From an uncultured Pelagibacteraceae bacterium (GTDB lineage: Bacteria > Pseudomonadota > Alphaproteobacteria > Pelagibacterales > Pelagibacteraceae), in contig CACGPY010000006.1 in NCBI GenBank assembly GCA_902575095.1, positions 1 to 54,699 on the forward strand: 54,699 nt of DNA, read 5' to 3'. Positions 14,449 through 19,072 of the stretch are shown piece after piece. Below the pieces are notes generated by a model. The model had not been told where the DNA came from and made no database searches. It saw nothing but the letters and a program-made list of their open reading frames with translations. The stretch's first letter is position 1, and each line of letters opens with the position of its first letter. The position numbers and the translations under genes are program-made.

Positions 14449-15345
14449 TTATTTTCTTCCAAATCCAGGTTTGTCAGTATCTTGACCAGCTTCGATGATT
14501 TCTTTTCTCGCTTTTTTAGTTGATGAAAAAATCTCTAAAAGTTTTTTACTATCTTTAATTTTTATTGCATCTTTAATTTCATTTAGACTCTTAGAATAAT
14601 TGTCTAAAACTTTTAAGATATTTTCACTATTATCAATAAATATATCTTTCCACATTAAAGGGTCTGATGCTGCTATTCTTGTAAAATCTCTCAATCCACC
14701 TGCACTATATTGAATTACATCGTCCTTAAATTTGTCTTCTTTGTTAATTGCTGATCTTACAATACTGTAAGCTACGGCATGTGGTAAATGGCTGGTTAAT
14801 GATAGAACATAATCATGATCCTCAAATGTCATACGTTTAGTCTTGCTTCCGAGCTTTGACCAAAAATTTTCTAAAGATTTTATTTTATCCTCGGCTACTT
14901 TTTTATCAGCAGATATAATGCACCATCTATTTTTAAATAAACTTGCAAAACCTGCCTCTGGACCACTGTATTCTGTTCCAGCTATAGGATGTGAAGCAAT
15001 CCAATTTACATTTTTAAGATTTAAATTGCTGATAATTTTATTCACTTCTTTTTTTGCAGAACCTGTATCTGTTAAAATTACGTTTTCTTTTAAACTAGTA
15101 TGAATAGATAAAAGTATTTCTTTATAGCTGCTTAAAGGAGAAGCAATAACTATTAAATCGGAATCCTTAACAACATCTGAAATGTTTCTGCAAATTTCAA
15201 CTGAAAAATTCTTTTTCAAATAATCAATAACTTTAGATGATTTATCGTAAGCACTAATTTTAGTTGCTAATTTTTTTTCCTCTACTGCTCTCAAAATGGA
15301 AGAGCCAATTAAACCACATCCGATTATACTTATTTTATTAAACAT
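14449..15345 (-). CDS. tyrA: Prephenate/arogenate dehydrogenase
   Basis: A 298-residue NAD(P)-dependent dehydrogenase for tyrosine synthesis. The N-terminal Rossmann fingerprint is IIGCGLIGSSILRA. The active-site His lies in WIASHPIAGTEYSGP near residue 115, with a second conserved segment LTSHLPHAVAYSI near 187. The TyrA C-terminal helical dimerisation domain follows. There is no fused chorismate mutase or ACT domain. It is co-directional with hisC, whose stop it overlaps by 8 bases; aromatic aminotransferase plus prephenate dehydrogenase is a common alphaproteobacterial pair. Confidence 0.92.
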   Translation of the reverse strand: MFNKISIIGCGLIGSSILRAVEEKKLATKISAYDKSSKVIDYLKKNFSVEICRNISDVVKDSDLIVIASPLSSYKEILLSIHTSLKENVILTDTGSAKKEVNKIISNLNLKNVNWIASHPIAGTEYSGPEAGFASLFKNRWCIISADKKVAEDKIKSLENFWSKLGSKTKRMTFEDHDYVLSLTSHLPHAVAYSIVRSAINKEDKFKDDVIQYSAGGLRDFTRIAASDPLMWKDIFIDNSENILKVLDNYSKSLNEIKDAIKIKDSKKLLEIFSSTKKARKEIIEAGQDTDKPGFGRK

Positions 15346-16420
15346 TTAATATTCTTTTCATTTTGGAAATTAATTTTCTATTTTCTTCACTTTTCCCAAT
15401 CGTAATTCTTAATGAATTCTTAATACCATAAACATCCATTTTACGAACTAAAATTCCTGCTTTCGCTAATAATTTAAAAACTCTTGATGAATTAATTTTT
15501 GTTTTATCAAAATTTACTAATAAAAAATTGCTATAGCTTCTATTAGTCTCAATTTTCATTTTTTTAAATTCATTAAACATTTTTTTGTTCCAATTATTAA
15601 CGTGTTTAATTTCTTTATTTAACCAAGCACTATCTTTTACTGCAGCAGATGCAGCAAACAAAGCAGCTTTGTTTACATTAAAAGGTGGCTTAATTTTATT
15701 TAACGTATCAATAATTTCTTTTGATCCATATCCCCACCCCACTCTCAATCCTGCTAGGCCATAAATTTTTGAAAATGTTCTTGTCATTACCACATTTTTA
15801 AAGTTAGAAAATAATTTTAAAGCTGAAGAATAATTTTTTTGTTTTACATATTCAAAATAAGCATCATCAACTACTAACAAAATATTGCTTCGCAGCTTTT
15901 TTCGTAAAAACAACAAATCTTTTTTTTCAACATAGGTCCCGGTTGGATTATTAGGATTAGCCAAAAATACAACTTTAGTCTTAGTAGTCACTTTTTTTAA
16001 AATATCTTTTACTGAAACTGTAAAATTATTTTCTTTTGAATAAATAACTCTTGCTCCATTCATTTTGCTATAAATTCTATAAATAATGAAACTATACTTA
16101 GGCACAATTACCTCATCACCTTTTTTTAGGTATGCTTTACAGATTAATTCAAAAATTTGATCTGAACCTGATCCCAAAACAATTCTATTTTTATCTAATT
16201 TAAATTTTTTTGATAAAGTCTCTCTTAAGAAAGTACCATTAGTGTCGGGATATCTCGCAAAACTTTTCGATACTTTTATATATTCTTTTTTTGCTTTTGG
16301 GCTAGGTCCAAGCGCAGACTCATTAGCTGATAATTTTATCTTAGCTAGTCTATTTTTAAATACGCTCATTCCTACTACGTATTTTTCAGTTATTATGTTA
16401 TTTGGCTTAGGTAATCTCAT
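15338..16420 (-). CDS. hisC: Histidinol-phosphate/aromatic aminotransferase
   Basis: A 360-residue class I/II PLP aminotransferase. KLSANESALGPSPKA near residues 31-45 is the substrate-binding N-terminal segment of HisC. The PLP phosphate site and LANPNNPTGTY (near 152-162) are present. The Schiff-base lysine lies in RTFSKIYGLAGLRVGW near residue 217. HisC proteins placed next to tyrA often act on aromatic keto acids as well as imidazole-acetol phosphate. The gene heads a minus-strand pair with tyrA, divergent from the SAM-II-controlled metX. Confidence 0.92.
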   Translation of the reverse strand: MRLPKPNNIITEKYVVGMSVFKNRLAKIKLSANESALGPSPKAKKEYIKVSKSFARYPDTNGTFLRETLSKKFKLDKNRIVLGSGSDQIFELICKAYLKKGDEVIVPKYSFIIYRIYSKMNGARVIYSKENNFTVSVKDILKKVTTKTKVVFLANPNNPTGTYVEKKDLLFLRKKLRSNILLVVDDAYFEYVKQKNYSSALKLFSNFKNVVMTRTFSKIYGLAGLRVGWGYGSKEIIDTLNKIKPPFNVNKAALFAASAAVKDSAWLNKEIKHVNNWNKKMFNEFKKMKIETNRSYSNFLLVNFDKTKINSSRVFKLLAKAGILVRKMDVYGIKNSLRITIGKSEENRKLISKMKRILNV

Positions 16421-16479
16421 TAATTAATGTAATATCCAAATTGTTCGAGTTTTTCTAGAAGTCTTTATCTTATATAAAA

Positions 16480-16508
16480 TTGACAAGTTTATGATGATCT
16501 AGTAAATA
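16480..16508 (+). promoter_or_regulatory. Promoter of metX (-35/-10)
   Basis: A perfect -35 TTGACA (16480-16485), an optimal 17-base spacer, and a -10 TAAATA (16503-16508; 4 of 6 matches). The expected transcription start at about 16514-16516 coincides with the first helix of the SAM-II aptamer, so essentially the whole leader RNA is riboswitch plus terminator. Confidence 0.7.
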
Positions 16509-16512
16509 GATA

Positions 16513-16564
16513 TCGCGCTGATTTAACCATATTGCAAGCGCATAATAAATTTAGCTAAAAAGGG
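16513..16564 (+). promoter_or_regulatory. SAM-II riboswitch aptamer controlling metX
   Basis: The sequence follows the SAM-II consensus nearly base for base. P1 is GCGCT (16515-16519) with AGCGC (16537-16541), a perfect 5-bp helix. The loop contains GATTTAACC and ATTGCA, the J/L3 strand is ATAATAAAT, and the conserved 3' pseudoknot strand is TTAGCTAAAAAGGG (16551-16564). SAM-II is a compact H-type pseudoknot that binds S-adenosylmethionine, typically upstream of alphaproteobacterial metA/metX. It lies directly before a terminator and metX, so high SAM should reduce homoserine acylation. Confidence 0.95.
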
Positions 16565-16568
16565 AGAT

Positions 16569-16594
16569 GCCCAGTTTAGCTGGGCTTTTTTTTT
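16569..16594 (+). terminator. Intrinsic terminator in the metX leader (riboswitch expression platform)
   Basis: A 6-bp GC-rich stem, GCCCAG (16569-16574) with CTGGGC (16580-16585), has a 5-base loop TTTAG and is followed at once by nine T. It sits between the SAM-II aptamer and the metX ATG. Bases 16570-16581 can alternatively pair with the aptamer's 3' strand 16553-16564 (7 bp, two mismatches, then 3 bp), which would destroy the terminator. This is the layout of a transcription-attenuation switch. Confidence 0.82.
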
Positions 16595-16596
16595 GG

Positions 16597-17736
16597 ATGA
16601 ATAGAAAAATTGAGAATATAAATAAGATTATAATTACTAAACCACTCAAGCTTGATTGTGGAAAAACCATTAAGAATTTTCCTCTGGCCTATGAAACATA
16701 TGGAAAACTTAATGAAAATAAAGATAACGCTATTTTAGTATTCCACGCTTTAACGGGCGATCAATTTGTAACTGGCACGAACCCAGTAACAAATAAAGAG
16801 GGCTGGTGGGTCACTGCTGTTGGTCCTGGCAAGGCTATTGATACAGACAAATATTTTGTAATTTGCGCAAATGTAATTGGTGGATGTATGGGATCTCTTG
16901 GACCAAAAGATACAAATCCTGAAAACAACCAGCCCTACGGTTTAGATTTTCCAGTTATCACAATTAAAGATATGGTGAAAGCACAAGAGTCTTTACTGGA
17001 ACACCTCGGTATAAAAAAACTTTTATGTGCTACTGGCGGATCAATGGGCGGAATGCAGTTGTTACAATTTTGCGCAACATTTCCCGATAAAGCTTTTTCA
17101 GCTATTCCGATAGCTTGTAGTTCAAGTCATAGTGCACAAAATATTGCACTAAACGAACTAGCACGCCAAGCTATAATGGCTGACCCTGTATGGGATAATG
17201 GAAAATATGTATCAAAAAATGTACAGCCTAAAAATGGCTTAGCAGTTGCAAGAATGGTTGGACATATAAGTTATTTATCTGAAAAAGGTATGCAGGAAAA
17301 ATTTGGAAGAAAATTACAAGAAAAAGCTGATTACGAATTTAGTTTTAACGCAGATTTTCAGGTAGAGAGTTATTTAAGACACCAAGGTTATGCTTTTGTG
17401 GAAAGATTTGATGCAAATTCAATTCTTTATATAACTAGAGCAATGGATTATTTTGATCTTTCTAAACAATATAAAGGTGGGTTAGTTGAAGCTTTTAAAA
17501 ATCAAGACACAAAATTTCTAGTAATATCATTTTCTTCAGACTGGCTTTATACAACAAAAGAAAATAAGGATATAGTAATTGCATTAAATGCATCTGGTGC
17601 TGATGTTTCCTATTCTGAAATATTAACAGACAAGGGGCATGACTCCTTCTTACTAAATGAACCAGAATTTTTAAAAACCCTTAAAGGTTTTATAGACTCA
17701 ATGTATGAAAAGTTTAAAAATGAAAAAAGAATTTAA
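16597..17736 (+). CDS. metX: Homoserine O-acetyltransferase (MetX)
   Basis: A 379-residue alpha/beta hydrolase-fold acyltransferase that activates homoserine with acetyl-CoA (or succinyl-CoA) for methionine synthesis. The catalytic triad is visible: Ser149 in GGSMGGMQ, Asp315 in SFSSDWLY and His348 in [19 protein letters not shown] near residue 28 is the family start motif. An in-frame ATG at 16567 lies inside the terminator hairpin and would add [10 protein letters not shown], which does not resemble the family, so I use ATG 16597. That start has no Shine-Dalgarno, only a U-rich tract. metW overlaps the 3' end. Confidence 0.93.
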
Positions 17737-18313
17737 AGTAATAGCTGAATTATTACCTAACAACACAAGAGTCTTAGATGTTGGTTGTGGAGATGGATCT
17801 CTAATGAATTTACTAAAAGAGGAAAAAAATATAGAGGTTCGTGGATTAGAACTTAACCAAGAAAATGTGCAACAATGTATACACAAAGGTTTACCTGTTA
17901 TACAGGGGAACGCTGAAACTGAACTTCATCAATTTCCTGATAAATCTTTTGACTACGTTGTGCTTAGCCAAACGTTACAAGCTTTTTATAACCCGGAAGA
18001 AGTTTTAAAAAATCTTTTGAGAATAGGTAAATCAGTAGTTGTTTCAATTCCAAATTTTGGATATTGGAAAGTAAGAATGAAACTTTTATTTTTTGGTGAA
18101 ATGCCAGTTACAAAAACATTGCCAAATACATGGTATAACACTCCTAATTTACATATGTGTACTATTAAAGATCTATTTAAGTTTTGTTATGAGAAAAATA
18201 TAAATATCAAACAAGTAGTTGGGGTTAATGAAGATAAAACCTCATTAATAAAAAAAAGAAACTTAGAAATAAAAAATCTCTTTTCAAAATTAGGGATTTT
18301 TTTAATAGGGTAA
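17720..18313 (+). CDS. metW: MetW, methionine-biosynthesis methyltransferase-like protein
   Basis: A 197-residue class I SAM-methyltransferase-fold protein with motif [12 protein letters not shown] near residue 20, and [10 protein letters not shown] then [13 protein letters not shown] further on. MetW is almost always next to metX and is needed for, or regulates, MetX activity. I chose ATG 17720 (protein begins [12 protein letters not shown]); an alternative ATG at 17705 would add five residues. It overlaps metX by 17 bases, so it shares the SAM-II-controlled transcript and is probably translationally coupled. Confidence 0.9.
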
Positions 18314-19072
18314 ATGATAGTAGAAATTATTCCATGCTTAAGTGACAATTATAGTTATTTAATACATGAAAAAGAAAAAGGCACTGTTTCAATAGTAGAT
18401 CCTTCTGAATTTAATGCATGTGATAAAATAATAAAAAAATATAAAAAGTTAGATTTTATTTTAAATACTCATCATCATGCTGATCATGTTGGTGCTAACC
18501 TTGAATTAAAAAAAAAATATAATTCAAAAATTTTAGGCTCACACTTTGATAAAAGTCGTATTCCAGGAATAGATATATTGCTTGAAGAAAATCAAAAACA
18601 CAAAATTGGCAATTTAGAATTTGAAGTAATTTTTATTCCAGGTCACACAAAGGGTCATATAGCTTTTTTCTTTAAAAAAGAAAAAATTGCTTTTACTGGA
18701 GACACATTATTTTCTTTAGGATGTGGCAGGGTATTTGAAGGCACTCATGAAGAAATGTTTAATTCTTTGAATAAAATAAAAAATCTTCCTCTTGATACAA
18801 AAATCTATTGTGGACATGAGTACACAAATTCAAATTTAAATTTCTGTTTAAAGTATGATCCAAAAAACACCCATTTAAAAGATAAAAAAATTGATATAGA
18901 AAAAAAATTAAATTCTTACCAGCCAACTATTCCTTCTACTATAGCTGATGAAATTAAAACAAATATTTTCCTAAGGTGCGATGACCCTGAAATTAAGCAA
19001 GGCTTAGGCTTAAAAGATTTATCCGATGTTGAAATTTTTTCAAAATTACGAGATTTAAAGGATTCTTTTTAG
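18314..19072 (+). CDS. gloB: Hydroxyacylglutathione hydrolase (glyoxalase II)
   Basis: A 252-residue metallo-beta-lactamase-fold enzyme that hydrolyses S-lactoylglutathione to lactate and glutathione, completing methylglyoxal detoxification. The binuclear metal site is complete: THHHADHVG near residue 53, PGHTKGH near 112-118, FTGDTLFSLGCGR near 131-143, and YCGHEYT near 170. The C-terminal HAGH substrate-binding domain is present. It starts right after the metW stop with no gap and is likely on the same transcript. Confidence 0.94.
   Translation: MIVEIIPCLSDNYSYLIHEKEKGTVSIVDPSEFNACDKIIKKYKKLDFILNTHHHADHVGANLELKKKYNSKILGSHFDKSRIPGIDILLEENQKHKIGNLEFEVIFIPGHTKGHIAFFFKKEKIAFTGDTLFSLGCGRVFEGTHEEMFNSLNKIKNLPLDTKIYCGHEYTNSNLNFCLKYDPKNTHLKDKKIDIEKKLNSYQPTIPSTIADEIKTNIFLRCDDPEIKQGLGLKDLSDVEIFSKLRDLKDSF

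Follow-up and report, generated by a model that had tools for sequence, protein, structure and literature searches.

The leader of metX in the DNA analysed here is best read as a SAM-II riboswitch that turns off metX, and with it metW, by transcription attenuation; we put the probability of this reading at about 0.8. The DNA (hereafter the window) is a 54,699-nt stretch from a SAR11-family genome of 942,715 bases in 34 contigs, estimated to be 86% complete. On the + strand, a TTGACA at 16480 is followed by a SAM-II aptamer, a 4-nt linker, a GC hairpin with its run of nine T and, after GG, the metX ATG. These parts, their conservation, and two mutually exclusive pairings with their computed energies are direct observations. 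The features, in window coordinates, are as follows.

15338..16420, − strand: hisC-like aminotransferase (TIGR01141, 317 bits, cut-off 276.6), divergent from metX
16480..16508, + strand: putative promoter, with TTGACA at 16480-16485, a 17-nt spacer and a weak −10 TAAATA at 16503-16508
16513..16564, + strand: SAM-II aptamer, 52 nt (RF00521 match 16505-16579; 48/52 identity to the laboratory RNA)
16515..16541, + strand: P1 stem, GCGCU 16515-16519 with AGCGC 16537-16541
16553..16564, + strand: aptamer 3' strand (P2 side), the antiterminator 5' strand in the SAM-free model
16565..16568, + strand: linker AGAT between aptamer and hairpin
16567..16569, + strand: upstream AUG in frame with metX (ORF 16567-17736), probably not the start
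16569..16585, + strand: intrinsic terminator hairpin GCCCAG-TTTAG-CTGGGC (terminator scan; identical in 65/65 relatives)
16570..16581, + strand: antiterminator 3' strand CCCAGUUUAGCU, partner of 16553-16564
16586..16594, + strand: terminator U tract, nine T (sequence, scan and conservation)
16597..17736, + strand: metX, homoserine O-acetyltransferase (NCBIfam NF001209, 510 bits, cut-off 331), from its probable true start
17705..18313, + strand: metW (TIGR02081, 239 bits, cut-off 189.5), overlapping the metX end

In the mechanism that we propose, transcription would start near the first base of P1. With SAM bound, the P2 pseudoknot would sequester the aptamer 3' strand, the hairpin at 16569-16585 would fold during synthesis of the U tract, and RNA polymerase would stop short of metX. 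With no SAM, the 3' strand would pair with CCCAGUUUAGCU on its emergence, before the 3' arm of the hairpin is complete, allowing read-through. We infer that the window copy binds SAM, that termination really occurs and that control runs in this direction. An earlier sequence-only reading had proposed this same polarity, SAM-bound RNA being OFF and SAM-free RNA forming the antiterminator (ON), and anatomy, conservation, folding and gene order all support it as a model. metX and metW probably share one operon. Within SAR11, a group that has been called the most abundant marine microorganisms (PMC10308909), the genus of the window carries this element ahead of metX.

The hisC-like gene reads away from metX, which rules out that the hairpin is the terminator of an upstream gene; a + strand terminator at this place can act only on transcripts that begin between the two genes, which means the metX leader. 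A scan of the window region for consensus promoters did not pick up the TTGACA/TAAATA pair at 16480..16508. The distance from TTGACA to P1 was 35 nt in 39, 39 nt in five and 36 nt in one of the 45 terminator-bearing metX leaders in our family sample, so that all 45 carry it.

The window aptamer is a SAM-II RNA that default annotation overlooks

A cmscan search matched RF00521 (SAM-II) at 16505-16579 with 25.5 bits and an E value of 0.001 in 501 nt. The gathering score is 36, which puts the window aptamer out of reach of a default Rfam scan. The gathering cut-off is a poor judge here, since the laboratory RNA itself scored 34.1 bits in its native locus (L014) and none of 147 SAR11-family genomes had a match above it, while 106 of the 147 had one at E ≤ 0.01. 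Default annotation therefore omits these SAR11 riboswitches.

The window contains the P1 stem and the P2 pseudoknot with the conserved ligand-site bases, as judged from its sequence. Three base triples have been named for PDB 2QWY, and the window has all nine of their residues; among them are G42, A45 and A46 (PMC3764141), which correspond to window positions 16554, 16557 and 16558. Compared with the SAM-II RNA printed in PMC8494917, the window differs at 4 of 52 positions. The RF00521 match and the 48/52 identity bear out the claim that 16513-16564 is a near-consensus SAM-II aptamer.

We also looked for a SAM-V partner. SAM-V had no match in the window, where only 2 nt separate T9 from the ATG, and the leader is not a SAM-II/SAM-V tandem; the best SAM-V match in the whole genome (21.1 bits, E 0.245) fell below the cut-off. 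Spread by phages was considered as well, and viral contigs held no exact match to the aptamer pattern.

A conserved terminator mirrors the adjacent aptamer strand

By sequence, by terminator scan and in 65 relatives, an intrinsic terminator lies between the aptamer and the start codon. The sequence-only reading had described a GC stem plus nine T at 16569-16594, four bases after the aptamer and before the ATG at 16597, and had noted that 16553-16564 can pair with 16570-16581 through 7 bp and 3 bp separated by two mismatches, across a loop of 5 bases. Base-by-base inspection confirmed the former, the latter is right letter by letter, and the pairing does use up the 5' arm and the loop of the terminator. 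By sequence and computed folding, formation of the antiterminator is incompatible with P2 as well as with the terminator.

Such a hairpin is unremarkable by itself, as we found one terminator-like site in 15500-18500 (this hairpin) against 1.4 expected in shuffled sequence. What goes beyond chance is its conservation and its complementarity to the aptamer. Using a pattern for the aptamer only, we scanned named bacterial and archaeal genomes and obtained 65 loci with distinct surroundings, all labelled Pelagibacteraceae, Pelagibacterales or 'Candidatus Pelagibacter ubique'; they are close relatives rather than independent events, and 17 of 18 further pattern-matching loci duplicate them. GCCCAG-TTTAG-CTGGGC-T9 was letter-identical in all 65, with ATG two bases later. 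The linker between aptamer and hairpin took nine forms among the same loci, and third positions were invariant at only 2 of the first 50 metX codons (64 loci with enough sequence), indicating that the hairpin, loop included, is held far tighter than neutral sites. A match was present in 25 genomes of the window's genus in our family sample, and each of them has the aptamer, then this type of terminator, then metX.

Covariation proved undecisive for the antiterminator, since GCUAAA on the aptamer side shows almost no variation and the hairpin none in 65/65. We therefore relied on conservation, loop enumeration and the folding of random loops in its place. At least six contiguous pairs with the upstream strand were possible for 27 of 31 distinct SAM-II hairpins and for 1 of 13 other terminator-like hairpins in the DNA examined (Fisher p = 9.9e-7, which overstates independence because the 31 hairpins are related). 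Two unlike stems occur, a GCCCAG type before metX and an ACCACCG..CGGTGGT type before other genes, and each carries a loop mirroring its adjacent aptamer strand. In the metX type, aptamer AGCUAAA faces loop UUUAGCU; in the other, GCUAAAGCG faces CGCUUUAGC or CGCUUUAGU. Across 90 terminator-bearing loci, the longest contiguous pairing was 9 in 39, 8 in 5, 7 in 29, 6 in 13, 5 in 2 and 4 in 2. When all possible loops were enumerated, a helix of at least 7 arose in 18 of 1024 loops on the metX stem, and one of at least 9 in 8 of 16384 on the other-gene stem.

Folding of the growing transcript favours a kinetic switch

We computed the folding of growing transcripts with the aptamer 3' strand either free or kept unpaired, the latter (locked) state mimicking the SAM-bound pseudoknot; the calculation leaves out pseudoknots, kinetics and protein effects. 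In the free window transcript, the antiterminator helix was present from base 16579 onward. When the hairpin was complete, at 16585, the predicted probability of the terminator was 0.06 free and 0.996 locked, and one base later 0.29 and 0.999. The leader with the laboratory aptamer behaved likewise (0.115 free and 0.996 locked with the hairpin just complete, then 0.45 and 0.999 after one more base). Replacing the loop by random ones rarely kept the free probability below 0.5 (8 of 400 loops for the window, 18 of 400 for the laboratory leader), and with the aptamer motif reversed none of 90 leaders fell below 0.5, compared with 59 of 90 native ones.

Among the 90 terminator-bearing loci, the locked probability exceeded 0.9 in 88, and the 59 with a free probability below 0.5 prefer the antiterminator at equilibrium. 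By group, the count was 21 of 25 for metX leaders in the window's genus, 1 of 20 for those elsewhere and 37 of 45 for leaders of other genes. The model is thus well supported for the window's genus and the other-gene group and weak for the remaining terminator-bearing metX leaders. With three more U free, 49 of the 90 loci were still below 0.5.

In the free window transcript, the terminator wins at equilibrium from the fourth U onward (0.54 at U4, 0.91 at U6, 0.995 at U9), and the completed leader folds as terminator. Since the terminator wins once at least four U are free, the switch must be kinetic. Attenuators in general make their choice with the U tract still inside the polymerase. Here, where pairing of the U tract favours the terminator, the choice would likewise have to fall at that stage.

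The laboratory metX SAM-II RNA carries the same terminator in its native genomes

The exact 52-nt RNA used in the laboratory was found in two SAR11 genomes, at locus L188 (isolate AG-914-J05) and locus L200 (isolate AG-918-M15); L014 comes from the same genome as L188 (2000/2000 bases alike). In both, the aptamer is followed by GAT and then by the same hairpin and T9. We take the RNA printed in PMC8494917 to be the crystallised 2QWY sequence, with which it agrees in length (52 nt, PMC12434664) and in residue names (PMC3764141).

Published descriptions treat this RNA as a translational riboswitch, in one case as a 'rare translational' one (PMC6061858) and likewise in PMC10907184, PMC12434664 and PMC9373788. 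Among the matches listed for the open-licence literature, no passage stated that the laboratory RNA has a terminator. An in-frame AUG directly after the aptamer makes the terminator resemble ten codons, which is a possible source of the translational reading. We consider it likely that the RNA behind the SAM-II crystal structure and much biophysics and simulation is an attenuation switch in its native SAR11 leaders rather than a blocker of the ribosome site, that its supposed Shine-Dalgarno GGG is an antiterminator clamp, and that the terminator was overlooked because the in-frame AUG mimics coding sequence.

This matters because a review and simulation papers use the laboratory metX SAM-II RNA to represent occlusion of the ribosome site. 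If termination is what it brings about natively, the time that counts is that of polymerase passing over about 25 bases, and the measured folding kinetics are to be judged against that passage.

Distribution in the SAR11 family and in other Alphaproteobacteria

Our family sample held 138 RF00521 loci in 147 genomes. A strict regular expression matched 24 of 144 loci, and we used the coordinates of covariance-model matches instead. A GC hairpin with a T tract followed the aptamer in 45 loci before metX and in 45 before other genes. The rest were 26 metX leaders without the hairpin, 12 loci with no strong hairpin (one cut by a contig end), nine with GGAG and AUG directly after the aptamer, and one that was not a SAM-II core. 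The other genes include, by NCBIfam, an O-acetylhomoserine sulfhydrylase (L019) and a methylenetetrahydrofolate reductase (L028), each scoring above the cut-off. The gene at L008 matched below the cut-off as a homocysteine S-methyltransferase-like protein, which we take to be bhmT-like.

The sequence-only reading had named retention of the aptamer with loss of the hairpin as a pattern that would refute it. We saw this pattern in 26 of 71 metX leaders, all from one genus (g4), and not in the window's genus. The g4 leaders limit the attenuator claim to other lineages and leave the window's own genus unaffected.

The 26 g4 metX leaders (L021, L023, L025, L029, L034 and 21 more) have T6-T9 directly after the aptamer, and neither a GC hairpin nor a Shine-Dalgarno sequence was seen in them. 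In all 26, CTC[AT]CAATTC occurs along with an ATCAGC-like stretch that varies, the two lying some 10-45 nt beyond GCTAAA. CUC[AU]CAAUUC and that stretch are nearly complementary to GCUGAUU and UGAAUUGCGAG of the aptamer; in 24 of the 26 leaders, at most 3 of 200 single-base shuffles gave an equally good duplex, and in the remaining two 7 and 26 did. Rho-dependent control is one guess for these leaders.

The nine loci with GGAG (L055, L058, L060, L072, L075, L094, L131, L138 and L140) are SAM-II-like leaders with a longer loop. They show GCUAAAGGAG, with AUG 14-15 nt after the start of GCUAAA and no hairpin, and open ORFs of 55-63 aa; searches of three of these proteins against Pfam gave nothing over the cut-off. 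By their sequence, they appear to be what a translational SAM-II looks like in the same family. In a further genus, g5 (L030, L049, L056, L057, L076, L099, L104, L125 and L141), SAM-II aptamers precede a metW-like gene, so called from the L049 protein, which is named metW, and from similar protein starts in the others. Most of these leaders have just a weak CACTT..AAGTG-type hairpin with a short T run.

For a sample across Alphaproteobacteria, we took 70 of 111 matches, of which four lacked the core by pattern, leaving 66 loci. A strict rule gave a terminator in 38 of the 66, a low count because inspection by eye showed that the rule misses imperfect stems. Outside SAR11, only 12 of the 38 loci with a terminator showed more strand complementarity than shuffled strands did (5% level), so the generality of the attenuator beyond SAR11 is suggested rather than shown. 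By eye, the aptamer GGUCGGG in this sample often resembles the 3' arm of the terminator.

Alternative explanations

Control could instead be translational, with SAM hiding GGG 16562-16564 as a Shine-Dalgarno sequence and metX starting at AUG 16567 or at 16597. This is the view published for the laboratory RNA in the four articles cited above, the upstream AUG is present in frame in 56 of the 65 relatives, and the family does contain SAM-II-like leaders with GGAG beside the AUG (9 of 138 loci). However, the upstream AUG is missing in the other 9 of the 65, and relatives that lack it have their MN.. start at the equivalent of 16597; AUG 16567, whose use would place the terminator inside the ORF, is accordingly probably not the metX start. 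The G run is followed by AUG after 2 nt in the window and after none in the laboratory RNA, whereas the conserved start at 16597 lies 32 nt from the end of GGG, past the terminator; P2 offers no Shine-Dalgarno sequence at a working distance from a start codon. Nor does this explanation have any need for a hairpin and T9 that are identical in every one of the 65 loci. Shine-Dalgarno-like motifs preceded 5 of 48 window ORFs of at least 150 aa against a shuffle mean of 5.4, a rough proxy in that the first ATG was taken as the start, which suggests little use of such motifs in this genome; a pattern for the 16S anti-Shine-Dalgarno tail was not found in the assembly, an absence that carries no weight in a genome 86% complete. 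The earlier judgement that purely translational control is unlikely is upheld by the poor position of GGG relative to the conserved start and by motifs at shuffle level, and we regard such control as quite unlikely.

Dual control, as in Sinorhizobium meliloti metA, is unlikely too, if a little less so. In that arrangement, ribosomes reach a distant AUG2 by way of the G-rich strand of the aptamer, SAM hides the strand, and the terminator between AUG1 and AUG2 is largely autonomous. The two leaders resemble each other strikingly in layout (aptamer, then AUG1, terminator and an in-frame AUG2), and the S. meliloti AUG2 is used at 74 nt from the Shine-Dalgarno sequence (PMC9373788). Yet the authors of that article could predict no antiterminator driven by SAM-II, whereas an explicit one exists here; moreover, AUG1 is absent in 9 of the 65 relatives, and Shine-Dalgarno usage is not visible in the window. 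Least probable, we think, is a constitutive terminator that always lowers metX transcription, its loop complementarity being incidental or used otherwise, for instance in a stable short RNA. Folding in the free state does favour the terminator, both for 31 of 90 loci and for the window leader once complete, but loops complementary to the aptamer stand on two different stems, and random loops rarely behave as the native ones do (the 8/400 and 18/400 given above). We therefore retain SAM-dependent attenuation as the preferred reading.

Comparison with known systems

Attenuation by SAM-II is of a known kind, and what our analysis adds is the re-reading of the laboratory RNA. SAM-II elements with putative terminators were described by Corbino et al. 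in 2005 (PMC1273637). In 'Ca. Pelagibacter ubique', SAM-II has been placed ahead of metX (PMC2704228), and the SAM-II elements of that organism, metX included, are said in passing to affect transcription (PMC5069961). The window leader shares with the transcriptional SAM-II of Alphaproteobacteria (SAM_alpha, RF00521) P1 and the pseudoknot, a methionine gene, the OFF logic and an intrinsic terminator between P2 and the ORF (PMC1273637, PMC2258182). It differs in that the metX pairing extends into the terminator loop, with UUUAGCU facing AGCUAAA of the SAM-binding strand, and in an outer P2a helix that would be only about 2 bp, as in the laboratory metX RNA (PMC6061858).

The SAR11 tandem SAM-II/SAM-V leaders (bhmT) likewise have an intrinsic terminator after SAM-II (PMC9481103, PMC11508383). 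Each of the four tandem loci that we scanned (L007, L106, L126 and L128) also has a SAM-V match, and in three of them the loop of the terminator complements the aptamer, the exception being L106. In contrast, the window has no SAM-V, its ATG comes 2 nt past the U tract, and its terminator stem is different. The S. meliloti metA leader has the same order of aptamer, AUG1, terminator and in-frame AUG2; no antiterminator was predicted there, and a distant start dependent on a Shine-Dalgarno sequence was shown there, not here (PMC9373788). The laboratory metX SAM-II RNA (PDB 2QWY) shares 48 of 52 bases with the window and has the same terminator behind it in L188 and L200, whereas the cited papers describe it as translational.
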